Part shown: piece after piece, positions 33,758 through 51,035 of the stretch | How positions within the stretch are numbered: position 1 is the stretch's first letter | How the letters are laid out: the number at the start of each line of letters is the position of its first letter | Notes under the pieces: model-generated | Databases searched by the model: none | What the model was told of the DNA's origin: nothing | Seen by the model: only the letters and a program-made list of their open reading frames with translations | Program-made: the position numbers and the translations under genes | Source: Halosimplex litoreum | GTDB taxonomy: Archaea > Halobacteriota > Halobacteria > Halobacteriales > Haloarculaceae | Reading direction: 5' to 3' | DNA: 64,000 nucleotides | Assembly: GCF_016065055.1 (NCBI RefSeq) | Contig: NZ_CP065856.1 | Coordinates: 558,001 to 622,000 of the forward strand

Positions 33758-34537
33758 ATGCTCACCTTCGTCGGACTCGGTCTCTACGACGAGCGCTCGG
33801 TCACCGTCGCGGGCCGCGAGGCCATCCGCGCGGCCGACCGCGTCGTCGCCGAGTTCTACACCAGCACGCTCGCCGGCGCGACGCTCGCCGACCTCGAAGC
33901 CGCCCACGACACCGAGATCGAAGTCCGCGACCGCGCCGGCGTCGAGCAGTCTCCGGACGATATCCTCGACGACGCCGTCGACTCCGAGGTGGTCTTCTGT
34001 ACGGCCGGGGACACGATGATCTCGACGACCCACACCGACCTGCGGCTGCGCGCTCACGACAGGGGTATCGAGACCCGCGTCGTCCACGGGACGACCGCAC
34101 AGGCGGCGGCGAGTTCGCTCACCGGCCTCCAGAACTACCGCTTCGGCAAGGCGACGACGCTGCCCTTCGAGCGGTCGCACGCCGGCGACGACCTGCCGGA
34201 GAGCATCATCGACACTATCGAGCGGAACCGCGACCGCGGACTCCACACCCTGGTCTTCCTCGACATCGACGGCGAGAACGAGGCGTACATGCGCGCCGAC
34301 CGAGCCGCCGGGCGCCTCGCCGACGCCTACGAGGACACCCTCGGGGTCGCCGTCGCGCGCGCGGGGAGTCCCGATCCCGTCGTCCGCGCCGACCGGCTCT
34401 CGGTGCTCGCCGAGGCGTCGTTCGGCGACCCGCTCCACCTGCTCGTGATCCCCGGCGACCTCCATCTCATGGAGCGCGACGCGCTCGCCGCCCTCGGCGA
34501 CGCCCCGAACGAAGCCCTCGAAGCGCTAGTCGTCTGA
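33758..34537 (+). CDS. dph5: diphthine synthase
   Basis: The 259-residue SAM-dependent methyltransferase has the tetrapyrrole-methylase fold markers MLTFVGLGLYDERSVT, AGDTMISTTHTDLRL and NYRFGKATTLPF, and ends with HLLVIPGDLHLMERDAL. It methylates the modified histidine of elongation factor 2 in diphthamide synthesis. CTTAATCC at 33729-33736 is a TATA candidate about 25 nt before the ATG. The 3' end overlaps the convergent artA gene by 12 bp. Confidence 0.95.
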   Translation: MLTFVGLGLYDERSVTVAGREAIRAADRVVAEFYTSTLAGATLADLEAAHDTEIEVRDRAGVEQSPDDILDDAVDSEVVFCTAGDTMISTTHTDLRLRAHDRGIETRVVHGTTAQAAASSLTGLQNYRFGKATTLPFERSHAGDDLPESIIDTIERNRDRGLHTLVFLDIDGENEAYMRADRAAGRLADAYEDTLGVAVARAGSPDPVVRADRLSVLAEASFGDPLHLLVIPGDLHLMERDALAALGDAPNEALEALVV

Positions 34538-35569
34538 GCGGGAACTCGCGCCCGTCTCCGCACCGGCCTCCGGTTCGCCCTCGACGGCGGCTGCCGGCAC
34601 GTCCAGGGCGGCTCGGAGGTCGTACTCCGAGCCGGTCAGGACGAACAGCAGGTCTTCGACGACCGTCAGAACCTCCGGGAGCTCGCGGACGACGAGGTAG
34701 GTGATCCCGACGAGCGCCACCACCGAGAGGCTCTGGGCGACGATCCGGTCGACGACGATGTAGGAGACCTGCCGCGGGTCGGTGAGTCCGAACACCGACA
34801 TGATGAGATCCGGGAACAGCTGGAAGCGCTGTTCGCCGAACCCGACGGCGATCATGACGTTCCGTCCGAGGTTCAGCGCGTAGATAATCGGGATCGACAC
34901 CGCGAACGCGCGGAGCTTCCGGCGCAGCGGCGCTTGGACGGCGGCGATCAGCCCGACGAAGATGGCCATGCTCCCGATCCCCGTACAGGCGATGACGATC
35001 GTGTAGAAGATGGGGCTCTCCCCGTCCGCGAACACGAACGTGTTGTGATAGAGATGTTCCTTCTCGCCGACGATGTAGCCGTCGTACGCGACCACCGACT
35101 GGCCGTCGACGACCGCCTCGTACCCCGTGACGAGGTCGGGACTCGACCCGATCAGCGAGATCAACAGCGCGGTCTGGTCGGTGACCGTCTCGACTAGGAA
35201 CTGCCGCAACACGGGGATCGACTCGAACGGGAAGAAGACCGCGCCCATCAGGAGGATCGCCCGCGAGAGGACGAACAGCGAGTCCCGCCCCGACCACAGC
35301 AGATACCCGACGTAGAACGAGGCGGGCACGGCGACGAGGGTCCCGACCCCCTCGATGACGCTCCGCTGGACGACCGCGAAGTGATAGATGAGACTGAACC
35401 AGAAGACGCCGAACAGCCCCCACGCCGCCACCCCGGCCTGTCGAGCGCGCTCGCGGCGCTCGGTCAGCTCCAGGACCGTCGTCGCGAGAAACGCTCCGAG
35501 TACGAGCCACGCGAGCGGGTCGGAAAAGCGCGTGGCCCAGTCCAGACCCGAGAGGACGACGTCGAGCAT
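34526..35569 (-). CDS. artA: archaeosortase A
   Basis: The 347-residue multi-pass protein carries the exosortase/archaeosortase catalytic residues: Cys in IACTGIGSM and Arg in NLGRNVMIA, with the expected FFPFESIPV region earlier. ArtA cleaves PGF-CTERM tails and passes surface proteins to a lipid anchor. The S-layer gene that begins its coding stop 170 bp away ends in exactly such a tail. The ATG at 35569 follows a TATA box at 35600-35607. An acidic tail (about 320-347) is likely cytoplasmic. Confidence 0.95.
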   Translation of the reverse strand: MLDVVLSGLDWATRFSDPLAWLVLGAFLATTVLELTERRERARQAGVAAWGLFGVFWFSLIYHFAVVQRSVIEGVGTLVAVPASFYVGYLLWSGRDSLFVLSRAILLMGAVFFPFESIPVLRQFLVETVTDQTALLISLIGSSPDLVTGYEAVVDGQSVVAYDGYIVGEKEHLYHNTFVFADGESPIFYTIVIACTGIGSMAIFVGLIAAVQAPLRRKLRAFAVSIPIIYALNLGRNVMIAVGFGEQRFQLFPDLIMSVFGLTDPRQVSYIVVDRIVAQSLSVVALVGITYLVVRELPEVLTVVEDLLFVLTGSEYDLRAALDVPAAAVEGEPEAGAETGASSRSDD

Positions 35570-35599
35570 CGGTACTGACTCAACGTTACGGGATCGGGA

Positions 35600-35607
35600 G
35601 TATATGT
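35600..35607 (-). promoter_or_regulatory. TATA box of artA
   Basis: CATATACT on the minus strand lies 31-38 nt before the artA ATG. Confidence 0.6.
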
Positions 35608-35740
35608 TTTGTCGTTGCGTCCACGGTGGACGCACGACCGCGTTGGCGTACGGAAACACCGCGGAGCAGTCGCTGTCCGGGTAGCGTCGAAAGAAATGTC
35701 GAGCGGTTAGGGGTCGGGCGTCAGCCCGATAGTGCTACCG

Positions 35741-38700
35741 TTAGTCGCGACGGCGCGCCGTGAGGAGCGCAGCCGCGAGCAGGGCGATGAGCGAGACGGC
35801 GACACCGAAGCCGGGACCGTCACCGGTCGTGGTCGGCTCGGGCGTCGTCTCGCCGCCGTCGTCGGCCTCAGTCGGCGTCGGCTCGGCCGTCGCGGTCGGC
35901 GTCGGCTCGGCCGTCGCGGTCGGCGTCGGCTCGGCCGTCGCGGTCGGCGTCGGCTCGGCCGTCGCCGTCGGCGTGGCCGTCGCCGTCGGCGTCGCGCTGC
36001 TCAGGGAGACGGACGCGCTGTCGGTCACTGCGCTACCGTTGGCAGTGTACGGCGCGTCGGCCTCGGGGAAGTCGTACAGGTTGTTGGAGTTGTCGTCCAG
36101 GTGCGGCATGGCGACCAGCGTGGTCGTCTCGTTGATCGGGCTGTCGAGGTCGACGCGCACGTTGGAGTGCTGGCCGGCCTCGAGGTAGCCGCTGGTGCCG
36201 ATGACGTCGCCGCTGGCACTACCCTCGTGGATGGCGATGAAGCCACCGTCGGAGAGCGTGGTGGAGTCGACGACGACTTCCTGGTTGCCCTCGGGGACTG
36301 CCTGGTCACTGAACGTGACCGTGGCGGTCGCTTGGGCCAGGATCATGCCGCTGTACTGGTCACTGATAGCGGAGCCGCCGCGGCGGACCGTGACAGTGAA
36401 GTTGATACCGGAACCGCGCTCGCTGAAGTCACCCGTCGCCGCGAACGTGCGGTCCTCGGTGACGTGGGTGTTCAGCGTCTCCAGGAACGGACTCGTGTCC
36501 GACTGGCTGTTGACGCGGAGGCCGAGCATCGTACCCGGGGCGACGTTCGTGTCGCCGCGCATGGTCTGACCGGCCTGGTTGCGGATGATAACTTCGTCGT
36601 CCGCGTTCGTGTCGAGCGTAGCCTCGGCGAGCTCGTAGGTCCAGACGGAGCTGACGGTGCCTTCACCGTCGCCGCCGATCTGCGGACCGACCGACTCGTA
36701 CCCTTCGAAGGTGAACGAGGCGTTGTACTGGATGTCATCCTCGAGGACGTCGTCGGAGACACCCGCCAGGTCGACTGCGACGTAGTAGGTGTCGTTCGCG
36801 TAGTCCGGGATGACGACCGTGTTGCTCGTGTCGAGGTCGAAGCGCTCGCGCTGCGCGTTCGGACCGGGCTCCTGTTCGGAGAAGCTGGCGTTGAAGACGC
36901 CGACGTCGACTGCGCTCAGGTACGCGCTCGTCGCGTTGGCGCCGTTGTTCGTGCGGTTCTTGAAGACGCCTTCGAGACCGGACGCGGAGAGCTGGTGGAC
37001 GATCAGCTCGTCACTGGCCACCAGGTCGGACTGCGTCAGGTTCCCGTCGATAGCGTCCTCAGTGTTGTCGGTGTTCTCGTCGATGAACTCGAAGTCGACC
37101 TGGTCCTTCTTGTCCGAGGGGACGACCCACACGTTGCTGCTCTCGGTGGAACGCTGGTTGATCCGCACTGCACCGACGCCGTCTGCGTCGATTTCGCTGA
37201 AGTTGAAGTTACCGCTGTTCAGCAGCTCGGCCTGGTCCTCGTCGTTCGCGACGATCGCGAGGTCGTACGAGGCCGGGTCGAGGATGCCGTTGCCGGCGAA
37301 GTCGAGGCTCGTGTCGTCGGTGACGTTACCGTCGCCGTCGAGGTCCTGTCGGACCGCCTCGACGAAGCCGCCGGACTCGCCACCGAAGGCGGTGACGTTG
37401 TCCTCACCCTGCGCGGTGAAGATGTAGTCCTCCATGCCCGTACCGGACATGTAGGTGTTCCATTCGAGGACGACCTCGCCGTCGCCGTCCTCGTCGGCAA
37501 CCGTCACGTTCGTCACGTAGGCGGTGTCGCCGACGTTACCGATGGAGACGGTCGCCTGAGCGCCCTCCTCGCTGTTGGAGAGCGAGATCGGGATCTCGAC
37601 GACGTCACCGCGTTCCTCCTCGACGACGCCGCGGTCGAAGGAAGCGGAGTCAGCCGTGGGGAACGTGTCGACAGTGAACTCGCCGGCACTGACGTCGACA
37701 CCGGTCGCGACGTCAGTGACGGTGACTTCGTAGTCGCCAGCCGCGAGCGCGAGGCCGAGGTCGTACGTCTCCTCGAACTCGCCGCGGTTGTTGAACTGGG
37801 TCAGTCGGTACTCGCTAGAGTCCTCGTCGTCGTCGTCGGTCGGACCGACGATGTCGATGGCGACGCCGGAGTTACCACGGATGGACTCACCGCTAACGGA
37901 GAGTTCGACTTCCTCGTTGTGCTCGAACAGGGTGCCGTCCTCGTCGAGGGAGGCCGACATCCGGAGCGACGTGACGTTGAAGTACTTCTCGGTCTCGCCC
38001 TGGTTCTCGTTGAACGTCAGGCGGTAGGTCGAACCGGACTCGAGGTTGTCGGATTCGAAGACGATCTCGCGGCTGTTGACACCGGTCGAACCGTCGAGGA
38101 TGATCTCACCGGTCTCGACGTTCTTCAGGAGGATGGCCGCGTTGTCGGCACCCGACTGGAACGAGACAGGCGAACCCTGGTAGATGCGCTGGGCACTACC
38201 GCGGGTGGTGTGAGCGTTGTCGGTCTCGAACAGAACCTCGGACGAGAGGTCCGCCGACACGTTGCCGGGGGTCGTCGAGTTGCTGTCCGAGACGCCCTGA
38301 GCGTCGGAGGTGTTGCCGATGTAGATGTCGACCTCACCTGCCGGGGAGATGTCGCCCAGACCGTGGGCGCTCTCGGCGATCTCGAAGCGAGCGCCGTTGG
38401 AGAGGGACGTGACGTCGCTCGCGCTCACGTTGGCGCGAACGGTGTCGCCCTGACCCGCCTGGCGCGCGTAGATAATGAAGTGCTGGTCGACGCTGTCGAC
38501 GTCGTTACCCGTCGTCGCGTTGACGACCGGGCGGTCGAAGGCAACCGTGAAGTCGCCCTGGTACTCGGTCACGGCGATGACGTCAGGCTCGCCCGGCTCC
38601 GGGGCGTCCTGACCGTCCTGACCGTCCTGACCGTCCTGACCGTCCTGACCGTCCTGACCGTCCTGACCGTCCTGACTCTCGGCGACCTCGACCGTGGTCG

Positions 38701-39163
38701 TACCGAGGTCGACGCTAGTGTCGTTACCGGCCGTGAAGCTGCCAGCGACCGAAATGTTGGCAGCGTCGGTAGCGTTCTCCGCGGTCAGAGTGTACGTGAC
38801 TTCGACGGTCGCGCCACCAGAGAGGTCCTGGAAGCTCGCGACCAGACCGTCGGAGTTAGCCTGGGGAGTGATCGCGAAGTCGGAGACTCCCGCAGCCTGT
38901 CCGTCGATCGTCGTCGAATCATACTCTGCACTCTGTACTCCTCCACTGAACGATTCGTTCAGCGTCAGGGCGCCGCCGTTGGCGTCCATTTCCGCTGTCG
39001 CTGTGACCGTAACCGTCTCGCCGGGCGCAACAGTCGCGTCGGCTGTGCGGTCGCCGCTTGCGACCCCTGCAGCCGCCGGACTGGCGGTGACAGCGAACAC
39101 GGAAACGACCATCAGCGCAGCGAGGAAGACGCTGCGAAATTTGTCGTTCGTTGTATTCGTCAT
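35741..39163 (-). CDS. csg: S-layer glycoprotein (BGTF / DUF7282 / PGF-CTERM)
   Basis: The 1140-residue product has a signal peptide (about 1-33) and an N-terminal beta domain (about 34-150) found again in the adjacent gene at 39424-40389. A (DGQ)7 linker follows, then the BGTF surface region from DVIAVTEYQGDFTVAFDRP, the DUF7282-like domain near the end, a Thr/Pro/Glu stalk of ATAEPTPT repeats and the PGF-CTERM tail (GDGPGFGVAV, hydrophobic helix, ARRRD). Many Asn-x-Ser/Thr sequons are present. It forms the lattice and is anchored by ArtA, whose gene is adjacent. The ATG at 39163 begins the signal peptide. The beta domain plus DGQ linker in front of BGTF is unusual. Confidence 0.91.
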   Translation of the reverse strand: MTNTTNDKFRSVFLAALMVVSVFAVTASPAAAGVASGDRTADATVAPGETVTVTATAEMDANGGALTLNESFSGGVQSAEYDSTTIDGQAAGVSDFAITPQANSDGLVASFQDLSGGATVEVTYTLTAENATDAANISVAGSFTAGNDTSVDLGTTTVEVAESQDGQDGQDGQDGQDGQDGQDGQDAPEPGEPDVIAVTEYQGDFTVAFDRPVVNATTGNDVDSVDQHFIIYARQAGQGDTVRANVSASDVTSLSNGARFEIAESAHGLGDISPAGEVDIYIGNTSDAQGVSDSNSTTPGNVSADLSSEVLFETDNAHTTRGSAQRIYQGSPVSFQSGADNAAILLKNVETGEIILDGSTGVNSREIVFESDNLESGSTYRLTFNENQGETEKYFNVTSLRMSASLDEDGTLFEHNEEVELSVSGESIRGNSGVAIDIVGPTDDDDEDSSEYRLTQFNNRGEFEETYDLGLALAAGDYEVTVTDVATGVDVSAGEFTVDTFPTADSASFDRGVVEEERGDVVEIPISLSNSEEGAQATVSIGNVGDTAYVTNVTVADEDGDGEVVLEWNTYMSGTGMEDYIFTAQGEDNVTAFGGESGGFVEAVRQDLDGDGNVTDDTSLDFAGNGILDPASYDLAIVANDEDQAELLNSGNFNFSEIDADGVGAVRINQRSTESSNVWVVPSDKKDQVDFEFIDENTDNTEDAIDGNLTQSDLVASDELIVHQLSASGLEGVFKNRTNNGANATSAYLSAVDVGVFNASFSEQEPGPNAQRERFDLDTSNTVVIPDYANDTYYVAVDLAGVSDDVLEDDIQYNASFTFEGYESVGPQIGGDGEGTVSSVWTYELAEATLDTNADDEVIIRNQAGQTMRGDTNVAPGTMLGLRVNSQSDTSPFLETLNTHVTEDRTFAATGDFSERGSGINFTVTVRRGGSAISDQYSGMILAQATATVTFSDQAVPEGNQEVVVDSTTLSDGGFIAIHEGSASGDVIGTSGYLEAGQHSNVRVDLDSPINETTTLVAMPHLDDNSNNLYDFPEADAPYTANGSAVTDSASVSLSSATPTATATPTATAEPTPTATAEPTPTATAEPTPTATAEPTPTEADDGGETTPEPTTTGDGPGFGVAVSLIALLAAALLTARRRD
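35871..35966. repeat. 24-bp tandem repeat encoding the S-layer stalk
   Basis: Four near-perfect copies of a 24-bp unit encode ATAEPTPT, a Thr-rich membrane-proximal stalk that is normally O-glycosylated in such proteins. Confidence 0.88.
38606..38677. repeat. 9-bp tandem repeat encoding (DGQ)n
   Basis: Eight head-to-tail copies of GTCCTGACC (plus strand; last copy variant) encode a DGQ linker between the N-terminal beta domain and the BGTF region. The unit length keeps the frame if copy number changes. Confidence 0.9.
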
Positions 39164-39224
39164 AGTTGTTGGATTGTTGTACATCGGGCCGATCCCGACA
39201 CTGTGCATCCGGTGGATTGTATGC

Positions 39225-39236
39225 CGGTATTAAATG
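39225..39236 (-). promoter_or_regulatory. TATA box of the S-layer gene
   Basis: CATTTAATACCG on the minus strand lies about 62-73 nt before the ATG at 39163, predicting a leader of roughly 40 nt. This differs from the leaderless pattern of the neighbours. Confidence 0.55.
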
Positions 39237-39423
39237 CTTTGTGTAATATCGTGCCCTATGCCACCCATTCTATTGCGACCTATGCAGGTGATCGACCAGG
39301 GAGAGCGCCCCGATATCGGGGAGTTCCGACCCGGAGAACCGAACCAAACTACCACTACCGGGACGAAATGTCACACACGAAACCGTTTCTGGCCCTATAT
39401 AAAAAGCGCGAACTGGTGGGTGC

Positions 39424-40389
39424 TTACGCCCCAGCGAACGCCGAGGCGATCTGACCGAGTTCGGCGATCGATAGGTCGCCGTTTGCGAAGGTCTTGGCCG
39501 CGTTGCCGAGATCGGAGATATCGATGGTGCCGTCGTTGCCGGCGAACCGGTCGACCGGGTCCGCCTCGACGACGGTGACGGTCAGGGTATCGAACGTCGT
39601 CGACCGGTCGCCGGCGGTGACGTCACCGGAGACCGCTACCGCGGTGCCCGCGGAGGCGTTCTCGGGGACCGTGGCTTCGATCGCCACGGTCGCCGTCCCG
39701 GTGACGTTTTCGATGGTGACGACCGTCCCGTTCGCCTCGCTCGCCGCGACGATGGGGAGCACGCTCTCGTTGGCCACCGACGTGTCGGTAACGGAGACGT
39801 TCGCGAGCGCGGGATCGAATTCGTGAGTGACGGTCAAGTTGCCCGCGGCGTTGTCGACGGAGGCGGTCACCGTCACGACCTCACCGGGTGCGGCCTCCGC
39901 AGTATCGAGCGCCTGTGAGACGACCAGGGGGTCCTCCACGACGTCGATAGTCGTCTGGACGCTCTCGTTGCCTGCACTGTCCGTCGCTCGCCCGTCGATC
40001 GCCATCTCGCCCGTGGATTCGTTGGCCGTCAGTTCGTAGGTGACCGCGACCGTCGCCCCCTCGGAGAGACCCTGGAAGCTCGCGACCAGCCCGTTCGCGG
40101 TCGCCTGGGGAGCGATCGCGAAGTCGGAGACGCCCGCAGCCTCGCCGTCGATCGTCGCCGACACGTACTCCGCACTCCGCACTTCACCGCTGAACTCCTC
40201 GTTGACGGTCAGGCTACCACCGCTGGCCTGCGCCGTGAACGTCACCGTCGCGGTACCGCCCGGTGCAACTGTCTGACTGTCCACACTGCGGGACGTCTCG
40301 TTGACCGCCGCCGCGGGTGCGGCCGCAGCCGTCAACGCGAGCAGCCCCAGCGCGAGCGTCAGTACTGGAACGAGTGCTTTCGATCGCAT
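39424..40389 (-). CDS. secreted two-beta-domain protein with dockerin-like tail
   Basis: The 321-residue product has a signal peptide (about 1-28) and a first beta domain (about 33-155) very similar to the N-terminal domain of the S-layer protein (shared AEY...TIDG-AAGVSDFAI and NGLVASFQ). A second, PGE-VTVTA-type beta domain follows (about 155-275), then the array's C-terminal module (about 280-321), ending SIAELGQIASAFAGA. Its EF-hand loop is degenerate (first acidic position lost). There is no membrane anchor. A promoter candidate is at 40411-40420. The layout of two beta sandwiches plus a dockerin-like tail recalls a minimal scaffoldin; this is inference. Confidence 0.83.
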   Translation of the reverse strand: MRSKALVPVLTLALGLLALTAAAAPAAAVNETSRSVDSQTVAPGGTATVTFTAQASGGSLTVNEEFSGEVRSAEYVSATIDGEAAGVSDFAIAPQATANGLVASFQGLSEGATVAVTYELTANESTGEMAIDGRATDSAGNESVQTTIDVVEDPLVVSQALDTAEAAPGEVVTVTASVDNAAGNLTVTHEFDPALANVSVTDTSVANESVLPIVAASEANGTVVTIENVTGTATVAIEATVPENASAGTAVAVSGDVTAGDRSTTFDTLTVTVVEADPVDRFAGNDGTIDISDLGNAAKTFANGDLSIAELGQIASAFAGA

Positions 40390-40562: not shown

Positions 40563-42497
40563 TCAGCTGGCCGAGAAGGCCTCGGCGACCGACCCGAGCT
40601 CGTCGATCGTGAGTCTGCCACTCGAGAAGGCATCGGCGGCGGCCCCGAGTTCGCCGATGTCGATCCGGCCGTCTGCGTCCGCGTCGTACTCGGCAGCCCC
40701 ACTGCCGGGCTCGTAGACCACGTCCCTCGGGAGCTGTGTCTCCTCTTCGACCGGCAGCGTCACCGTCGCCGAATCCGTCGCCCCATCACTGGCTTCGACG
40801 GTCAGAGTCGCGGCGTACGTCCCCGAGTGGGCGTAGGTGAACGCGACCGTCTCGCCGGTCGCCTCGACCGCCGAATCCCCGTCGAAGTCCCACCGATACG
40901 CCGCGTCGTCACTGTTCGCGGTCGTGTTCGCACGGAACGTCACCGACTCACCGACCGCTACCGAGTCGGGAGCGACCCCGAACGCGGCCGTCGGCGTCGG
41001 GTCTCCCCCGTCGAGAGCCAACACCTGCGTCCCCTCGATCGACTCGGTGCCCGCGGTGAACCGCACCGTCACCGCTTGCCGTCCGGACGCCGGGGGCGTC
41101 CACTCGACGGCGTGGCCCGCGTCGACGCGTTCGAACGCCCCGTCACCGTCGGTGTCCCAGGACACTTCGACGCCGTCGAGCGGTTCCGCCAGCGTCCGGA
41201 GCGTCCCGTCCTCGGAGGCGAACATCGGCTTCGTCTCGAAGACCTTCCACGCGGCGGCCGGGTCGTCGGAACCCCCGCTCATCCACCGTTCGTGGAACGA
41301 GGCGAACGACTCGCCCGTCTCCGCGCGGAACTGTCGCTCGAAGTCGCTCCCCGCGGAGTCGGCGAGCAGGTCGAGCAGCGACTGCCGGCCGTACTCGGCG
41401 ACGTACGAGGCGACGAAGTAGTGGGCCTGGTCGTAGCTGGCCGTCCACTCCAGCAGCGCGTCCTCGGAGGGCTTCGACAGGTCGTCGTAGTACGGGAGCG
41501 TCGAGGACTGCTCGTAGGAGGCGTGACCCTCGATCAGGAAGTTCCAGCCGCCGTCGGTCTCGGTGGTGGCCTCGTACTGCCCGAGATGCGCGAGTTCGTG
41601 GACCAGCGTCGTCCGGACCCCGTGGACGGTCTTCCCGTTCGCGACCACCACTGTGTCGGGCGCCACCGCGTACGACCGTGCCCGGGGCTCGGCCAGTTCG
41701 AACGTGACGGTCTCGGGCAGTTCACCGGCCCGCTGTTCGTAGCGCTCGTAGACCGTCGGGAGGTCCGGTTTCAGCGCGGCGAGGACGATCCGGTCGTTGC
41801 GCGAGAGGGGCTCGGCCGACCGCAGGACGAACCGCTCGGTGTCTTCGAGCGTCCCCGGTTCGTACGCGCGGAACGACAGCGACACCGTCTCCGTCGCGTC
41901 CCGATCGGTCGCCGCCATCGTCACGGTCAGTTCGACCGCGCCCGGGCCGGTGAACTCGAACGCCGTCGGCTCGGCCCCGACGCGGGCCACCGGCCCGCTC
42001 GCCGAGACGTTCGCCACCGTCGCACCGCTGCCCACTTCGTCGGTCGCCCGCAGTTCGAGTCGTTCGCCGGTGAGCACCCTGTAGCCGACCGACGACAGCG
42101 CCTCGCCGTCCCGGTCGACGAGCGTCTCGGACAGCGAGAGTTCGACCGGCGTTATCTCGACGGTCTCGGTGATCACTCGGTCGTCGACGTGGGCCTCGAC
42201 GGTCACCGTCACCGGGGCCGCGCCCACGCGGACGGTACAGTTCGCGTGTCGGATGCAGCGGTTGGTCCCGAGTTCGCCGTCGTTGCGCCAGACGAGCGTC
42301 GCCCCGTCGGGCAGCGTCGCCTCGTCGACCGCGATCGTGACCGAGTCGTGGGGCTCGGGCGTCGGGTCGTCGACCGAGACCGCGAACCCCTCGCTCCCGG
42401 TCGAGCCCGCCGCCGCGTCGGCGGCCCCGCCCGCGGCGAAGAGGGCGGCGCCGACCAGCAACAGCGACAGCACCGCGGCGTAGTCTCGCGTCGGCAT
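40563..42497 (-). CDS. secreted HExxH metallopeptidase with PKD domain and dockerin-like tail
   Basis: The 644-residue product has a signal peptide (about 1-30), beta-rich N-terminal domains and a zinc-peptidase domain with His300-Glu-Leu-Ala-His304 and a third ligand candidate Glu322 (EGHASYE), the gluzincin arrangement. A PKD domain follows (about 505-585; YRWDFDGD, FTYAHSGTY), then the 56-residue C-terminal module (589-644) with the perfect EF-hand loop DADADGRIDIGE. ATG 42497 is preferred to GTG 42500. A TATA-like TTATAC is at 42524-42530. It has no anchor of its own. The substrate is unknown. Confidence 0.86.
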   Translation of the reverse strand: MPTRDYAAVLSLLLVGAALFAAGGAADAAAGSTGSEGFAVSVDDPTPEPHDSVTIAVDEATLPDGATLVWRNDGELGTNRCIRHANCTVRVGAAPVTVTVEAHVDDRVITETVEITPVELSLSETLVDRDGEALSSVGYRVLTGERLELRATDEVGSGATVANVSASGPVARVGAEPTAFEFTGPGAVELTVTMAATDRDATETVSLSFRAYEPGTLEDTERFVLRSAEPLSRNDRIVLAALKPDLPTVYERYEQRAGELPETVTFELAEPRARSYAVAPDTVVVANGKTVHGVRTTLVHELAHLGQYEATTETDGGWNFLIEGHASYEQSSTLPYYDDLSKPSEDALLEWTASYDQAHYFVASYVAEYGRQSLLDLLADSAGSDFERQFRAETGESFASFHERWMSGGSDDPAAAWKVFETKPMFASEDGTLRTLAEPLDGVEVSWDTDGDGAFERVDAGHAVEWTPPASGRQAVTVRFTAGTESIEGTQVLALDGGDPTPTAAFGVAPDSVAVGESVTFRANTTANSDDAAYRWDFDGDSAVEATGETVAFTYAHSGTYAATLTVEASDGATDSATVTLPVEEETQLPRDVVYEPGSGAAEYDADADGRIDIGELGAAADAFSSGRLTIDELGSVAEAFSAS

Positions 42498-42523
42498 CAC
42501 GTCACCGCGATGGGCCAGTCGGC

Positions 42524-42637: not shown

Positions 42638-45600
42638 TTAGCTGGCCGAGAAGGCCTCGGCGACCGAACCGAGCTGGCCGATGTCGAGTTCGCCACTCGA
42701 GAAGGCCTCGGCGGCCGAACCGAGCTCGCCGATGTCGATCAGGCCGTCGTTGTCGCCGTCGTACTCGGCGGCCGCACTACCCGGCTCGTAGACCGCGTCT
42801 TCCGGGGTGTCGTCGGTCACCGCTTCGACGGTCAGCGTCGCGGTGACGCTGTCGTCGCCGTTGTCGCTGTCACTGACCTCGACCGAGAGGTCGGCCGTGG
42901 TCGTGTTCGCGACATCAGGCGCGGAGACCGTCACGTTGGCCTCGACGGTCAGGTCGCGGAACTCCGCGCTGGAGTCGGGCGCGACACTGAACGTGATGAC
43001 GTTGCCGCTAACGTCCGGGCCACCGGACAGCGAGACGTTCTCGCCGTCGGCGTCAGTGACCGAGACGCTGTTGGCGCTGTCGAGCGTCGCGGCGTCCGGA
43101 ATCGTCACCGTGAAGGTGTCCGTGTCGCCGTCGTCGCTGACGTTCATCGCGTCGAAGGTCAGCATGTGCTCGTTCGTCGTGTTCGCGTCGACCGTGCTCG
43201 GGTCGAGGTTGACGTTGTCGAGCATGACCGCACCGGGGTCGACGGGAGCCTCAACGGACACGTCGACCGTGTCGTTGACGAACGCCTTGCCGACCTGCGT
43301 GCGGGTCGGCTTGCTCGCCTCGACGGCGAACTCGCCGGCCGAGTCGAAGGTGACGTTCGCAGTCTGGTCGATCGAGACGGTGTTGACCACGTCACCGGAC
43401 GCGTTCCGCACGGTCAGCGTACCGGTGGTCTGGCGGTCGAAGTCCTCACGGGTGAGCGTGAACATGACCGTATCGTTCTGCGCGATGTCGGTCGTGTTCG
43501 CGGCCAGCGAGAGGTTGACCTGCTCGTAGACGTTCGTGGTCGCGACCTGGAAGCTCGCATCATCGGACGCCTGCGCGGTGTCCGTCACGAGGTCGACTTC
43601 ACTGCCGGTGATCGAGTCATCGACAGTGTAGGTGATCGTGCCGGATTCGGTGGTCGTGAAGTCGAAGTTGACCAGGCCTTCGTCGGTGAGCTTCGACTGG
43701 GCGCCACCATCGAGGGCGCCGCTAATCTCCACGCCAAGGAGGTCGAGCTGGTCACCGTTGGCGTCAACGGCGTTCAGCACGAGCGAGTAGTCCGAGCTCG
43801 GCTCGAGGTCCTCGGGCGTGTCTTCGAGCGTGATGTTGCCCGTGTTGATAGCGATCTGTCCGTACGCCCCGTTAGCCGTATCGAGCGAGGTCGAGACGTT
43901 CAGCGTCTGCGGCGCGGCCTCGGCGGTTCCCTGCTCGGGCGCGACCGACACTGCGCGCGTACCGTTCTCGTTGACCGTCACGGTCTCAGAGTTGCCAGCA
44001 GTCGTCGCGTCCGGACCAGTCTCGTCAGAGAGGTCGTCGAGCTGGAAGCTCGCGTTGACTGCACTGAGATCGACATCGACCTTGCCGAGCGCGCTGCCGT
44101 CGCGCGGGTCTTCGACGGTAACGTTCATCTCGGAGACGAGACCGAACGTCAGGTCGTCGCCACCGAGGGTGGTGGTGATCTCCGGCTCGACCACGTCGAG
44201 GGTCGTGGAGCCAGTCCGGGATTCACCGTCGTCAATCGTGATGTTCAGCGGTGCGGTCGAGTTCTCCGCGCGGAGTTCGACCTGCAGCGCGTCGTTGGTG
44301 CCGTCACCGTCGGTGTCGACGGATGACGGGGCCGTGACTTCCGTCACTTCGGCCGCCGGTTCGTATGAGACCGTGAAGTCGTCGAGGGCCGTCCCGTTGA
44401 CGATGTCACCATCTTCGGTGATCGTCAGGTTGTGGACCTCATTCGCGCCCGCGAGGGCCGCCGAGCGGTTCGACGAGATCTCGTAGGATTCGACGCCAGT
44501 AACCGAGATCGCAGCTGCCTCATCGATCCGACTGTCGTCGTACGCACTGTTAGCGACTTCCAGATCGATGCTACCGGTGGTGTCGAACGAGACGTTCTCG
44601 GCGATGTAGTCACCGTTGTTCACGGAGCTGAAGTCCTGAACAACAGTGCCGCCAACGCCGCCAACTTTCACCTGACCATCCGGACCGTGGATGACGAGCG
44701 TGGTGTCAGTCTCGTAGTTGTTAGCTGTCTGGGGCGAACTGGCGTTGAAGGTCACACCGGTTAGTACGACGATGCGGTTGTTCAGCGGCGTCCCATCGCT
44801 GTCCGTGACCTGCAGGCTTACATCCTGCCGGGCGTCGTCGATAGTGGCCTGGCTCGGACTCAGACTGTTGTAGCTGTCACCGAGGACGGGGAGCGTCAGC
44901 GACTCGCTGACTTCCGCGCCGTCGTCCGTGTGTCCTGTCACATCTATCGACACTTCGCCAGCCTGTTCGGGGTTGAGGCTGCCGAAGGTTGCCGTACTAC
45001 CGTCCTGGCCCTCGTTGGCGCCATCGAGGAGAACGCTCTGCTCCTCAATGCCGATGTCGGGTGCGCTGATGGTCACCGTCGCGTCTGCCAACGCGTTGCC
45101 ATCAGCAGGCTTCTGGTTGTCACTTCCGACAACGTCAACGTTGATGGACTGAGCACCATCACCGTCAGCGGCGCCGGTCACCGAAATGTCGCTTTCCTGA
45201 ACGTTGACGATGAGGTCCTGATCCGCGGTCGCCGTAGCCGCGGAGTCGTCACCGAGGAGGTCCGGGGCCGTAGGCGAACTGAACGCCGTGTCCTCGTAAC
45301 CGTCAATCAGGTCCGTCCCGTCGTCGGTTTCGAGCTGTGCAGTCACTTCCGCAGCGTTCACCGTCGGCGTCGCTTCGATCACGACAGCCTCGGTTCCGGC
45401 ACCATCACTCTGCGCAGGCACGACGTGGATGTAGTTCGTCTCATCCTGGTCGCCATCAGTATCCGAGTTGAGCAGCGTACCCTGACTGATGTAGACATCA
45501 GCTGTTGAGTCGGTGTCGGATACGACCGTGCCGTCGAACGGGCCCGTGATGTTGAGGTAGTTGGCACCGGAGCTGTCGTATGCTCCAGCACCTTCTCCTG

Positions 45601-47323
45601 CGAAAGTGCCAAGCGGGAGAACATTCCCGGCCTCGTCCTTAGCCGTAACCGTGTAGGTCTCGGAGAAGCCCTGGAAGTTCTCGCCATCAGCGGTGATCGT
45701 CACGTTCGCGTTAGCAGCGCCAACGTCGATAGTTTCGACATCGGCGGTGTCACCAGCGTCGTGGACGTACCACGTGCGTGCGTCGTTCAGCGTTGCGGTA
45801 ATCGAGAAACCACCGTTGGAGCCGGTAGTGTCGACACCGACCAGACTACCGGCACCGCCGCTCTGCGTGCGGATCTCGATTGAATTACCAGTTACAGGAT
45901 CACCATTACTGTCCACCAGATTCCCGCTAATCGTCACTTCGTCGTTGTAAGCGGGGCTACTGGGGTCGACAGTGAAGTTCTCGACGATATTGCGGTCTTC
46001 AACCGTGACCGTGGCACCGCCTTCGTTGTTAGCAGCAGTACTGTCGATGTTGACAGCGTCAGTAGTGGTGCTGATACCAACGAACCAGTCGCCAGCACTG
46101 TCGAAGACACCGTCAACGGAGAACGCACCGGTACTCGTACTCCCTGTCTCCTGGGTGGCATCACCCTCGTCAACCAGTGCGTAGTTGATGCTCTCCTGAT
46201 AGAGATCACCGGTTTCGGCTTCAGTATCGTACCACTGGTAGACGTTCGCGTCGATGGTGTTCTCCGTACTCAGGACGACCGTACTCGGATCGGCCGTAAC
46301 GTAGTAGTCGTCAGTCGTATACGCCGCGTTGTCGACTTCGCTTCCAGCAACAATGAGCGACCCGTCCTGGTTGGTCGCCTTCGCCTGGGAGAACGTTGCA
46401 TCCGTTGTCGTGCCCGTCAGCGTGATCTCTTGGTCGTTGTAGTTGTGACGGACAACAACCTCACCACCGATGTCTTCCGGATTATCGCTGACACGGAAGG
46501 TAACGTCGTCACCGGCGGTGGTTCCTTGTGAATTGACGGCGATCGTCGGCTGAGAGAGTGCCTGATCAACCGTCTGCGATGTCGTCGTATCTTGTAGCGA
46601 TGAGGTGCCACTCGTTGCGATAACGTACGTGTCAGCAGTCACAGTGACAGTGTACGTCCCGCCACTAACGCTGTCGAACGAGTAGTCCCCGTTCGAATCC
46701 GTTGTCGTGGTTGCGACGACCTCAGCAGCGTTGTCGTCGGTAAGTTCGACCGTCGCGCCCTCGATTGCTGACGCGTCGCCAGCATCAGTAATGGAGCCCG
46801 AGATACTCCCTTCCGCGAAGGCAAACGTGGCGCTATTGGCTGAGTCACTGGCGCTAACGTCCGTGACTTCGTAAGTCAGCCCACTGGCGCTCGCATCTGC
46901 ACCGGAGGTATCGAGACCAGAGAGGGTCAGGTCGAAGTCAGCGGTCCCATCAGTGCCGTCAAGCTGTGTGACGTCAACAGTAACAACGCCGGTTGTTGTG
47001 TCGAAGCCTGTTACAGAAGCAGCAGCGTCACCATCACTTCCGGGGTTGATCGTAACCCCAGCATCGGCGCTACTCAGATCAACGCCATTCTCCTGTAGAG
47101 CGGAGACGTCAATCTCAACATCGCCTGTTGTATCGACTATGATATTATTCGTTACATGCTGTGTGCCAGCATCGGCTGACCCAACGACGAGGTCGTTAGG
47201 TGTACCGGCATCACTGACTGCGGCCGCCGCCGTCCCACTCACTGCCACAGTCGCCCCGAAGACGGAGCCGACCATGAGCAGGGAGAGGAACAGCGCGCGC
47301 AGCTTCTCGTTGGTTCCTGTCAT
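42638..47323 (-). CDS. giant surface glycoprotein with dockerin-like tail
   Basis: The 1561-residue product begins with an S-layer-type signal peptide (MTGTNEKLRALFLSLLMVGS). It contains many Ig-like/carboxypeptidase-regulatory-like beta repeats (for example ISGSITDAGDASAIEGATV) and many Asn-x-Ser/Thr sequons. A domain near 1395-1500 is shared with the peptidase at 54112-56385 (DGDTDTFTVTIP, SVTDADGE). It ends in the 56-residue module with loop DGDNDGLIDIGE. The PGF-CTERM helix expected for such a protein is missing. GC of the 5' half (about 44.8-47.3 kb) is visibly lower than that of the 3' half and neighbours. An RHH-type gene ends 19 bp upstream. It may be a second lattice or sheath protein. 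Confidence 0.86.
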   Translation of the reverse strand: MTGTNEKLRALFLSLLMVGSVFGATVAVSGTAAAAVSDAGTPNDLVVGSADAGTQHVTNNIIVDTTGDVEIDVSALQENGVDLSSADAGVTINPGSDGDAAASVTGFDTTTGVVTVDVTQLDGTDGTADFDLTLSGLDTSGADASASGLTYEVTDVSASDSANSATFAFAEGSISGSITDAGDASAIEGATVELTDDNAAEVVATTTTDSNGDYSFDSVSGGTYTVTVTADTYVIATSGTSSLQDTTTSQTVDQALSQPTIAVNSQGTTAGDDVTFRVSDNPEDIGGEVVVRHNYNDQEITLTGTTTDATFSQAKATNQDGSLIVAGSEVDNAAYTTDDYYVTADPSTVVLSTENTIDANVYQWYDTEAETGDLYQESINYALVDEGDATQETGSTSTGAFSVDGVFDSAGDWFVGISTTTDAVNIDSTAANNEGGATVTVEDRNIVENFTVDPSSPAYNDEVTISGNLVDSNGDPVTGNSIEIRTQSGGAGSLVGVDTTGSNGGFSITATLNDARTWYVHDAGDTADVETIDVGAANANVTITADGENFQGFSETYTVTAKDEAGNVLPLGTFAGEGAGAYDSSGANYLNITGPFDGTVVSDTDSTADVYISQGTLLNSDTDGDQDETNYIHVVPAQSDGAGTEAVVIEATPTVNAAEVTAQLETDDGTDLIDGYEDTAFSSPTAPDLLGDDSAATATADQDLIVNVQESDISVTGAADGDGAQSINVDVVGSDNQKPADGNALADATVTISAPDIGIEEQSVLLDGANEGQDGSTATFGSLNPEQAGEVSIDVTGHTDDGAEVSESLTLPVLGDSYNSLSPSQATIDDARQDVSLQVTDSDGTPLNNRIVVLTGVTFNASSPQTANNYETDTTLVIHGPDGQVKVGGVGGTVVQDFSSVNNGDYIAENVSFDTTGSIDLEVANSAYDDSRIDEAAAISVTGVESYEISSNRSAALAGANEVHNLTITEDGDIVNGTALDDFTVSYEPAAEVTEVTAPSSVDTDGDGTNDALQVELRAENSTAPLNITIDDGESRTGSTTLDVVEPEITTTLGGDDLTFGLVSEMNVTVEDPRDGSALGKVDVDLSAVNASFQLDDLSDETGPDATTAGNSETVTVNENGTRAVSVAPEQGTAEAAPQTLNVSTSLDTANGAYGQIAINTGNITLEDTPEDLEPSSDYSLVLNAVDANGDQLDLLGVEISGALDGGAQSKLTDEGLVNFDFTTTESGTITYTVDDSITGSEVDLVTDTAQASDDASFQVATTNVYEQVNLSLAANTTDIAQNDTVMFTLTREDFDRQTTGTLTVRNASGDVVNTVSIDQTANVTFDSAGEFAVEASKPTRTQVGKAFVNDTVDVSVEAPVDPGAVMLDNVNLDPSTVDANTTNEHMLTFDAMNVSDDGDTDTFTVTIPDAATLDSANSVSVTDADGENVSLSGGPDVSGNVITFSVAPDSSAEFRDLTVEANVTVSAPDVANTTTADLSVEVSDSDNGDDSVTATLTVEAVTDDTPEDAVYEPGSAAAEYDGDNDGLIDIGELGSAAEAFSSGELDIGQLGSVAEAFSAS

Positions 47324-47342
47324 ATGTTTTTGTAGTTTGTCA

Positions 47343-47528
47343 TTAAGTGTCTGATTCGTCCATGTCGAAGTGCTGTCGGAGGATATCCTCCAGCTTGACA
47401 CTGACGTTTGATCCTTCAGCGACGGCCTCGGCACGTACTTGGCGCCACACTTCTCGATCGATCTCGATCGAGGTGTGTGTCGTGTCGCTGCCGCCCGAAC
47501 TGTTCTCGTCGGTCATCGCCGTTGTCAT
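47343..47528 (-). CDS. ribbon-helix-helix-like small protein
   Basis: The 61-residue product has the core HTSIEIDREVWRQVRAEAVA then SVKLEDILRQHF, a beta strand and two helices in the pattern of RHH/CopG-type DNA-binding proteins. An ATG four codons later (47516) is an alternative start. It ends 19 bp before the giant surface glycoprotein gene, so it is probably co-transcribed and may regulate it. Confidence 0.72.
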   Translation of the reverse strand: MTTAMTDENSSGGSDTTHTSIEIDREVWRQVRAEAVAEGSNVSVKLEDILRQHFDMDESDT

Positions 47529-49654: not shown

Positions 49655-51035
49655 AGGCGGAAACCCACCCGTTCACGGGTGGGAGGAAGCGCGTCCACTC
49701 GGTGGTACAATCCACCGACGACAGCAGGGCCGACTTCCAAACGCTTTTGAATTACTAAGATTACATATGGTATATGGGGAAGCGGCGCACTGTCCCCGTG
49801 CGACTCGACGTGGACAGTGACGATGTCGCGCTTCTCCGCGACACTGTCGACGAGTTCCTGTGGGCCGCCAACTACGTGACGCGCCACGCTTTCGAGGGTG
49901 AATACGTCACGACGAGTAAAACAACGCTCCACGATGGCACCTACGAAGACGTGCGCGATGAAACGCACTTGCACAGCAACCACGTCCAAGCCGCTCGCAA
50001 CAAGGCCGCCGATGCCTGCAAGAGCGCCGTCGAAAAGTGGAAGCACGGCAAGAAAGCGTCGATGCCCCACTTCACTAGTCCACACCTCGTCTACGATCAC
50101 CGCACCGCGACGTTCCACGACGACCACGTGAGCCTCGCCACGCTCGATGGCCGGATTGTAGCCGAGTACGTGCTCCCGGATGACGAGCGAGATACGCCCC
50201 ACGCCGAGTACTTCTTCTCGGACGAGTACGAGACGACAGGCGCAGAATTGCACTACACGAACGGTAACTGGATGCTCCACGTCCACTGCAAGGTGGAGGT
50301 GGAGTCCGACACGTCGGAGCAGGCAACACCCGAGAACGGAGCGGTTCTCGGGGTTGACCTCGGCGTGAATCAGCTAGCTGTCACTTCGACTGGCACGTTC
50401 TGGACGGGCGACGAGTTCGACCACTGGCGCAGAGAGTACGAGAACCGCCGTGGCGACCTGCAAGAGTGTGGAACGCGGTGGGCACACGAGAATCTGCAGG
50501 CTGTCGGACGCAAAGAGACAAATCGCTTCAAAATCACACTCCACCGTATCAGTGATGCGTTAGTCGCGGAGGCCCGCGACCACGAGTGTTCAGTGATAGC
50601 CTTCGAGGATTTGACGGACATCCGGGAGCGCACTGGTGCGTCGTGGGGCCACAAGTGGGCGTTCGATCGCCTCTACGAGTACGTCGAGTATAAAGCCGCA
50701 GAGTACGGTGTCGACGTAGAACAGGTAGATCCCGAGAACACGTCACTGCGATGCTCGACGTGTGGGTGCACAGACCCTGACAACCGCGACGGTGAGGACT
50801 TCGAGTGCCTGAAATGCAGCTACGAGAACCATGCCGACTACAACGCCGCGAAAAACATCGGTCTGCGGTATCTCCGTCGGGACCAAACAGGCTCCGGTGG
50901 AGGCGCACCCGTAGGCGTGTGCTTGAACAGCGGGACGCTGAACGTGAACGGAGAGTATGACCCTCCTGCCGATGATTCGGCTAGAACGGGAGTCCACGCT
51001 GAAAGCCCACGGCTTTAGCCGTGGGGTAGCTTACG
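49655..51035 (+). mobile_element. IS200/IS605-group element carrying only tnpB (IS1341 type)
   Basis: A tnpB gene is bounded by two subterminal palindromes: CCCACCCG-TTCA-CGGGTGGG at 49664-49683 and CCCACGGC-TTTA-GCCGTGGG at 51006-51025. No tnpA is present. The exact ends are not certain, since this group leaves no target duplication. Confidence 0.82.
49774..51018 (+). CDS. tnpB: RNA-guided endonuclease TnpB
   Basis: The 414-residue product has the RuvC-like catalytic residues in place: [11 protein letters not shown] (Asp), IAFEDLTDI (Glu) and [12 protein letters not shown] (Asp), with a zinc finger CSTCGCTD...CLKC between. The N-terminal REC/wedge region is complete (about 1-190), so the nuclease is probably intact. 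TnpB proteins cut DNA guided by an omega RNA made from the element's right end. Its stop codon lies in the loop of the right-end hairpin, so coding and guide RNA sequence overlap. Confidence 0.93.

Follow-up and report, generated by a model that had tools for sequence, protein, structure and literature searches.

A beta domain at the N terminus of haloarchaeal S-layer proteins is a likely receptor for type-matched C-terminal tails

What do a beta domain shared by two neighbouring surface proteins and a short C-terminal tail shared by seven have to do with one another? The question is raised by a 64,000-nt stretch of Halosimplex litoreum (contig NZ_CP065856.1, 558,001–622,000, assembly GCF_016065055.1), here called the window, whose positions serve as coordinates below. 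On its reverse strand lies the gene for a surface-layer (S-layer)-type glycoprotein of 1155 aa (35741–39208), to which halo_sig_pep, an N-terminal beta domain, a DGQ linker, DUF7827, BGTF, DUF7282 and PGF-CTERM were assigned with Pfam and NCBIfam. The beta domain (residues 49–177, 38678–39064, delimited by sequence comparison) is the proposed receptor, and a flexible (DGQ)n linker (residues about 178–202, 38603–38677, read directly) joins it to the S-layer body. The adjacent gene on the same strand encodes a 321-aa protein (39424–40389), which we call the adaptor. It has a signal peptide recognised by eye, two beta domains and a C-terminal tail (residues about 280–321, 39427–39552, located with the tail profile), and PGF-CTERM is absent from it. 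Tails of this kind, about 45 aa long, occur seven times in the window, as the initial annotation had counted. That annotation proposed that the beta domains are cohesin-like receptors for dockerin-like tails. Gene neighbourhoods, clustering, matching of types, concerted differences, exclusion of the anchor and adaptors fitted to their own genome speak strongly, though indirectly, for the core of the proposal, and its filing under cohesin and dockerin is not supported. From these comparisons of sequences, it is likely that the beta domains and the tails are the receptor and the ligands of a non-covalent S-layer docking system.

The two proteins share the beta domain through duplication. The S-layer domain resembles the first domain of its neighbour, as had been noted, with 60% identity over 123 aligned codons, and BLASTP of the two proteins aligns 83 of 158 residues as identical (E 1e-32), whereas the second adaptor domain matches the same S-layer stretch more weakly (40/121). 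Adaptor domain 1 (residues 29–152, 39934–40305) is thus the closest relative of the S-layer domain by BLASTP and domain alignment. At the DNA level, 158 of 203 positions agree between 38781–38983 and 40025–40227; an ungapped comparison with both strands of the whole window gives 88/203 as the next-best score, in the second adaptor domain. The DNA likeness reported earlier is therefore real, but not the claim of only a few differences, as 12 positions differ and 69 of 81 agree between 38860–38940 and 40104–40184. At identical residues, 42 of 74 third codon positions are the same, where codon usage alone predicts 40.6; the exception is one central patch of the domain, in which an eye count finds 17 of the 19 third bases alike. 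Because synonymous positions are near random outside this patch, the duplication looks old, with the protein apparently kept by selection; a recent duplication was considered and rejected on the third codon positions. The beta domain was also said to lie before the BGTF region, which is correct but loose: it stands at the mature N terminus, and BGTF spans residues 870–952. Of the plan given for the neighbour, two beta domains followed by a C-terminal tail stood, and a dockerin family for the tail did not.

To follow both modules, 391 genomes of the class were surveyed with a beta profile (A3, E ≤ 1e-5) and a tail profile (A5, E ≤ 1e-4). At most 11 beta and at most 18 tail candidates were scored per genome, so that absences are soft and genome counts are lower bounds. 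Profile A5 was built from 13 genomes, with four tails excluded (two of G021, one of G322 and a near-duplicate of G333), and the genomes not used to build it are called unseen here. Beta domains were found in 98 genomes, at least three of which (G102, G114 and G005) are counted for a Pfam-level cohesin, tails in 48 and both in 30 (odds ratio 6.7, p 3.7e-9). Among the unseen genomes, 17 carry both, 18 a tail only, 68 a beta domain only and 275 neither (odds ratio 3.8, p 0.0004); leaving out three congeners of G206 gives an odds ratio of 3.1 (p 0.0034), and strong tails in unseen genomes give 9.5 (p 2e-5). These p-values are optimistic because genomes share descent. The beta domain occurs in three settings in the haloarchaeal loci, namely the N terminus of PGF-CTERM S-layer proteins, beta-tail adaptors and MMPL transporters, and in the window's own genome it is found in the S-layer protein, in the adaptor and, weakly, in one MMPL-family protein. 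This genome has 12 tails at E 1.1e-9 or better, of which seven are in the window, one lies just past its end and four are far off. Their carriers are the large companion glycoprotein described below and proteins that match M61 and, below cut-off, other peptidases, a 5′-nucleotidase, PPC repeats, GH10 xylanase, a PQQ propeller, subtilase, PKD or NosD/beta-helix. The highest tail count in the sample, at least 18 across the chromosome, was seen in G286, where every one of the 18 scored candidates matched.

The two modules are also neighbours on the chromosome. In G160 (Halostella pelagica), G152, G294, G188, G302 and G083, at least one tail protein is encoded next to a PGF-CTERM protein that has a single beta domain at its N terminus, and the same neighbourhood recurs in G189, G327, G196, G232 and G305 (gene starts in these loci come from simple picking of open reading frames, and lengths are approximate). 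The order in G196 (tail, tail, beta-beta-tail adaptor, tail, S-layer protein with beta domain and PGF-CTERM) closely repeats the layout of the window, and those of G305, G189, G327 and G302 are similar to it. What follows the beta domain in G196 is a complete S-layer protein of the HVO_2072 family, which matches positions 2–783 of the 784 in model TIGR04216 with 1015.7 bits (cut-off 400), and it was this protein that passed the whole S-layer model in an NCBIfam scan of seven S-layer-type proteins (window, Halostella, G302, G232, G152, G196 and G119). The window protein itself exceeds the cut-offs for PGF-CTERM (39.3 bits, cut-off 24.5), BGTF (78.5, cut-off 40) and halo_sig_pep (25.5, cut-off 24.6) and lies below that of the whole-protein model NF041335 (212.7 against 1100), so that its role as the lattice protein is one that we infer. 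Of 70 tails in unseen genomes, 18 (from 12 genomes) have a beta domain no more than 10 kb away, compared with 0.54 expected at random. Over 22 unseen genomes the same distance holds for 18 of 57 tails, against 2 of 95 PKD proteins and 4 of 96 canonical dockerins; the test used 150 beta rows, and the PKD control 95 open reading frames, among the matches listed. Both PKD proteins carry a tail or a beta domain themselves, and all four dockerins belong to G006, where they stand beside weak beta rows.

In the loci examined, tails and membrane anchors exclude one another. PGF-CTERM is present in none of the 70 C-terminal tail proteins in the loci examined, and 41 beta genes there divide into 18 with PGF-CTERM, 10 with a C-terminal tail, none with both and 13 with neither, the last including MMPL-type proteins, others with a C-terminal hydrophobic segment and genes cut by the edge of a locus. 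Since no tail coincides with PGF-CTERM, the tail behaves as an alternative to the anchor. Beta-tail adaptors were seen beyond the window in Halostella (PKD, beta domain and tail, 659 aa), G196, G189, G327, G305, G302, G286, G369 and G370; two beta domains followed by a tail occur in the window, G196 and G327, and tandem beta domains followed by PGF-CTERM in G206, G333, G146 and G322. For all eight adaptors compared, from seven genomes, the beta domains rank the S-layer beta domain of their own genome first of 12, so the duplication is the rule in those adaptors.

The types of the two modules also agree. Across 12 genomes (66 pairs), tail similarity tracks the similarity of the S-layer beta domains with r = 0.68, and none of 5000 permutations was as high. 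This comparison included three of the 12 tails of the window's genome and two of the three seen in G232, and excluded G021, G322, G156 and the genomes G119 and G277, whose S-layer-type proteins bear a NEW3-type domain. The correlation is unchanged with family and genus rank held constant, is r = 0.69 between families, and is r = 0.64 with separate alignments (1/5000 permutations as high). The five most similar beta pairs, all of which cross family borders, take the five highest tail ranks, while the S-layer body shows no such relation to the tail (r = 0.02). Within one genome, tails on different proteins resemble each other far more (mean similarity 0.53, 31 pairs) than tails of different genomes do (0.23, 434 pairs).

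Close relatives show the same agreement as an abrupt change. In G152 and G188, which belong to one genus, the S-layer bodies are 82% identical (547/665) whereas the receptor domains are 31% identical (34/110; 23% in the 12-way alignment), and the switch falls at the linker. The G188 receptor shares 54–55% identity with its counterparts in G083 and G232, two genomes of other families in which the tails are of the G188 type; the G152 receptor is 57% identical to that of Halostella, whose tails are of the G152 type. The congeneric pair G232 and G119 differs in a concerted manner at three sites: at the N-terminal domain of the S-layer protein (31%, 33/107, against 64%, 494/769, in the body), at the tail of the companion (24%, 11/46, against 78%, 758/970) and at the tail of a third protein (21%, 10/47, against 75%, 303/403). 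Between G119 and G277, by comparison, the N-terminal domain is shared at 98% (126/128), as is the companion tail (98%, 47/48). Since receptor and plug differ in concert between congeners, specificity can be tested directly with natural pairs.

Several points weigh against the docking reading, and the first arises from these congeners. The companion tail and the S-layer N terminus lie within about 0.5 kb, and their joint replacement could therefore be a single recombination tract. The S-layer N terminus and the neighbouring gene ends might accordingly form a hot spot of surface variation, for virus escape or serotype-like switching, in which the modules change together as one recombining island rather than through binding, and the crossing of family borders by beta types, a sign of transfer, would suit it. 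We regard this as quite improbable. The tail of the third protein, 3 kb off, is separated from the S-layer N terminus and the companion tail by the companion body, which was not exchanged between the two differing tails; moreover, four tails of the same kind lie far from the island in the window's genome, and one genome's tails resemble each other across different proteins.

The distribution of the modules supplies further points on the opposing side. A beta domain was not detected in 18 of the 48 tail genomes (5 of 17 when only unseen genomes whose tails are strong are counted), nor a tail in 68 of the 98 beta genomes, and many beta-only matches lie in open reading frames of about 1150–1500 aa, of which both that were checked, one from the window's genome, are MMPL transporters. 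When beta proteins other than S-layer proteins are included (19 genomes), the correlation of types is weaker (r = 0.36, 0.0002 by permutation). In G119 and G277 the tails are paired with a NEW3-type N-terminal domain instead of a beta domain, and G021, where a beta-bearing S-layer protein accompanies tails resembling the G119 type, is an exception to strict matching. The tail could be a docking or sorting tag for some other surface component (a protein, a glycan or a processing enzyme), with the beta domain a structural Ig-like S-layer domain of the same island; additional Ig-like domains at the N or C terminus have been recorded for haloarchaeal S-layer proteins, with no function given in the part of the source consulted (PMC8640222). 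This alternative, to which the strong tails without a detected beta domain lend some weight, is nevertheless unlikely. It predicts neither the matching of receptor and tail types, nor a third tail 3 kb away that differs along with the S-layer domain, nor beta-tail adaptors whose beta domains match their own S-layer protein.

The five unseen genomes with strong tails but without a detected beta domain are G119, G277, G244, G290 and G359. The first two have a different N-terminal beta sandwich in the same place (Pfam NEW3 for G119), which also speaks against a mere tag, and in G359 the tail protein itself has a weak beta match (10 bits). The beta domain is probably not the only type of receptor, and the NEW3 domain of G119 and G277 may be a second receptor family, which would account for two of these five genomes. 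In the loci, PGF-CTERM S-layer-type proteins with a NEW3 N-terminal domain stand beside tails of another type at L144, 9981–13100, and L143, 6331–9423; the Pfam assignment (NPCBM_assoc, 33.6 bits, cut-off 24.4) is for L144 only. We lean, by a little, towards the wider view that the N-terminal receptor of the S-layer protein is exchangeable, cohesin-like or NEW3-type, that its types are mutually exclusive, and that all tails of a genome, including that of the companion, are re-coded to the type. As for the MMPL-family transporters, the beta domain forms their end at L108, 10024–13842 (the window's genome, match C1:650790–651113), L136, 5411–8968, and L152, 4415–8299, where the family was assigned by Pfam for the L108 and L136 proteins; an MMPL-type protein of G117 has a beta domain and then a weak tail-like segment (14 bits).

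Are the receptor and its ligand, then, a cohesin and a dockerin? An AlphaFold2 model of adaptor residues 153–321, built from ten alignment rows, has a predicted local distance difference test (pLDDT) value of 91 and a predicted template-modelling score of 0.76, and contains adaptor domain 2 (residues 156–275, 39565–39924) as a beta sandwich of jelly-roll type. The fold is compatible with that of cohesins, the comparison that the initial annotation had called for, and this counts in favour of docking, but it is not specific to them. VIA-align ranks Gram-positive pilin domains (EbpB, BcpA, SpaD) at the top (Z 14.8, root-mean-square deviation 2.1, 120 aligned), a further point against the docking reading, ahead of cohesin 4uyq_A (Z 12.1, 2.5, 119 aligned) and the cohesin-like 2jh2 (Z 11.9). 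In the Foldseek list, rank 9 (E 3.9e-6) is held by a cohesin from a cohesin–dockerin complex, and cohesin 2xdh of Archaeoglobus fulgidus has an E of 1.1e-4. Adaptor domain 2 scores 20.4 bits with the Cohesin model PF00963, below its cut-off of 24.1, and is unlisted in a whole-protein Pfam scan; across 20 beta domains, two match Cohesin at E ≤ 1 (best 2.2e-4). Searched against PDB sequences with phmmer, the adaptor gave no match at E ≤ 10, and the beta profile gave short matches only, the best to a designed immunoglobulin (E 0.0092) and two to ‘autonomous cohesins’ (0.053 and 0.054).

The tail is further from its supposed family. Dockerin_1 gave no match at E ≤ 1 to any of the seven tail proteins in the window, and no tail among 57 from 22 further genomes falls on one of the 96 Dockerin_1 rows among the matches listed. 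A model of a 44-aa tail is a helical hairpin of two main helices and one short helix (pLDDT 92), for which Foldseek found no PDB match at E ≤ 0.001 and VIA a Z of at most 4.2; no dockerin or EF-hand is named among the VIA matches listed, which is not evidence of different folds. By eye, the second repeat is without a loop in all seven window tails, and the calcium-loop ligands are lost in the adaptor's own tail, where the EF-hand-like loop is degenerate. The reading of the tail as a dockerin outright was rejected on the Dockerin_1 scan, the separate genomic positions and a failed profile–profile link.

An ordinary, though diverged, cohesin–dockerin system is on these grounds highly improbable. 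It would be favoured by the moderate profile–profile match (hhalign) of the beta domain to haloarchaeal PF00963 cohesins, 92.3% over 86 columns and 85.1% without one row that the beta profile itself had found, against 42% over 27 columns for CARDB; by the Pfam-level cohesins of G102, G114 and G005 that the beta profile also finds; by adaptor domain 2, the sole, sub-cut-off, Cohesin match of its genome at E ≤ 0.01; and by a complete first calcium-type loop in six of seven window tails. Opposed to this, the loop is incomplete in 21 of 29 aligned tails from 13 genomes and complete in eight (by eye), the profile–profile comparison of the tail with five haloarchaeal dockerins (PF00404) gives 2.4%, the modelled hairpin has no PDB counterpart, and canonical dockerins of the same genomes sit elsewhere. 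The fold, profile and tail comparisons therefore indicate a system that works like cohesin and dockerin, with a receptor that is plausibly a distant cohesin relative at most and a ligand that is not a recognised dockerin. The label of minimal scaffoldin given to the adaptor fits in architecture only: more than one putative receptor module, joined in a single protein to a putative ligand module or to an anchor. An apparently large and genuine cohesin–dockerin system does exist in the class, in G006, which has 56 canonical Dockerin_1 matches at E ≤ 0.001 and Pfam-level cohesins. A gene of G195 (L106, 9068–11014), in which by eye the last of two or three beta matches looks like a cohesin and the C terminus like a dockerin, is a possible link between the systems.

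Among known systems, the bacterial cellulosome (PF00963, PF00404) is alike in that an anchored protein bears beta-sandwich receptors and that enzymes carry short ligand modules at their C termini, and likewise in its flexible linkers and in adaptors that combine receptor and ligand. It differs in that the receptor here is on the S-layer-type protein itself, falls below the Pfam cut-off and has a fold nearer to pilin domains, and in that the tail is no Pfam dockerin and mostly lacks complete calcium loops. Gram-positive pilins share that fold, but no pilin architecture is present here. Archaeal cohesin and dockerin proteins, from Archaeoglobus fulgidus (2xdh) and anaerobic methanotrophic archaea (ANME; PMC9012536), are surface proteins with cohesin-like modules and scaffoldin-like architecture, and passages of the latter report describe ANME proteins with one dockerin and up to five cohesins. 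Those modules, unlike the present ones, are annotated cohesins and dockerins, and the same passages give no receptor-bearing S-layer glycoprotein and no matched tail types. The ArtA-dependent S-layer glycoprotein (HVO_2072/csg, TIGR04216, NF041335) shares the signal peptide, BGTF and PGF-CTERM, whereas here an additional N-terminal beta domain and linker stand ahead of the canonical protein. In the titles and abstract openings of the open literature found, the pairing of an S-layer beta domain with tails is not described.

How would such a system operate? The N-terminal beta domain of the S-layer protein would act as the docking receptor, held above the lattice on its (DGQ)n linker. Its ligands would be the array proteins' C-terminal tails, taking over from a membrane anchor and keeping secreted enzymes and the large companion glycoprotein on the S-layer with no covalent bond. 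The adaptor would insert its tail into the S-layer receptor and offer its two beta domains as two further sockets, and the companion may be a second surface component. In the Haloferax volcanii lattice, N-terminal domain D1 is arranged around the hexamer axis, according to one report (PMC8640222). If a further domain were tethered in front of D1 by a flexible acidic linker, each hexamer would present six sockets. We infer direct binding, its orientation, the direction of the adaptor and the stoichiometry from the arrangement of the modules, and a role for calcium would be possible only for tails that keep an EF-type loop. The C terminus of the S-layer protein would be processed by archaeosortase A, whose gene adjoins it (34526–35659, reverse strand; TIGR04125, 319.4 bits, cut-off 75). 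The archaeosortase A family processes PGF-CTERM proteins at their C terminus.

The other tail genes of the window are all on the reverse strand as well. Next to the adaptor lies a protein with a PKD domain and metallopeptidase-like matches below cut-off (40563–42500, tail 40566–40697), followed by the companion surface glycoprotein of 1598 aa (42638–47434, tail 42641–42772), which shares 42% identity over 885 aa with a tail protein of G196; companions are homologous among several loci, and halo_sig_pep was found in both that were tested. A second group comprises a protein with an M61-type peptidase match (54112–56385, tail 54115–54246; 26.9 bits, cut-off 22), one with a 5′-nucleotidase C-terminal domain (56512–59235, tail 56515–56646; 102 bits, cut-off 23.6) and two with PPC repeats (59482–61419, tail 59485–59616; 61561–63864, tail 61564–61695). 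Between the two groups, an open reading frame on the forward strand (49774–51018), to judge by direct reading, may encode a TnpB-type transposon protein.

The known way for haloarchaea to keep proteins at their surface is to anchor PGF-CTERM proteins through a lipid (compare the abstract opening of PMC7157517). If the docking reading is true, a receptor in the S-layer protein would give them a second way of doing so, and would offer a display system already suited to high salt. The plugs, specific to each genome, would be borne by a giant companion glycoprotein, by peptidase-like proteins and by a subtilase, a 5′-nucleotidase and a GH10 xylanase. If the receptor is exchangeable as well, the S-layer would amount to a display lattice that can be programmed, made in effect of two components, with enzymes as its cargo and adaptors as its branch points.

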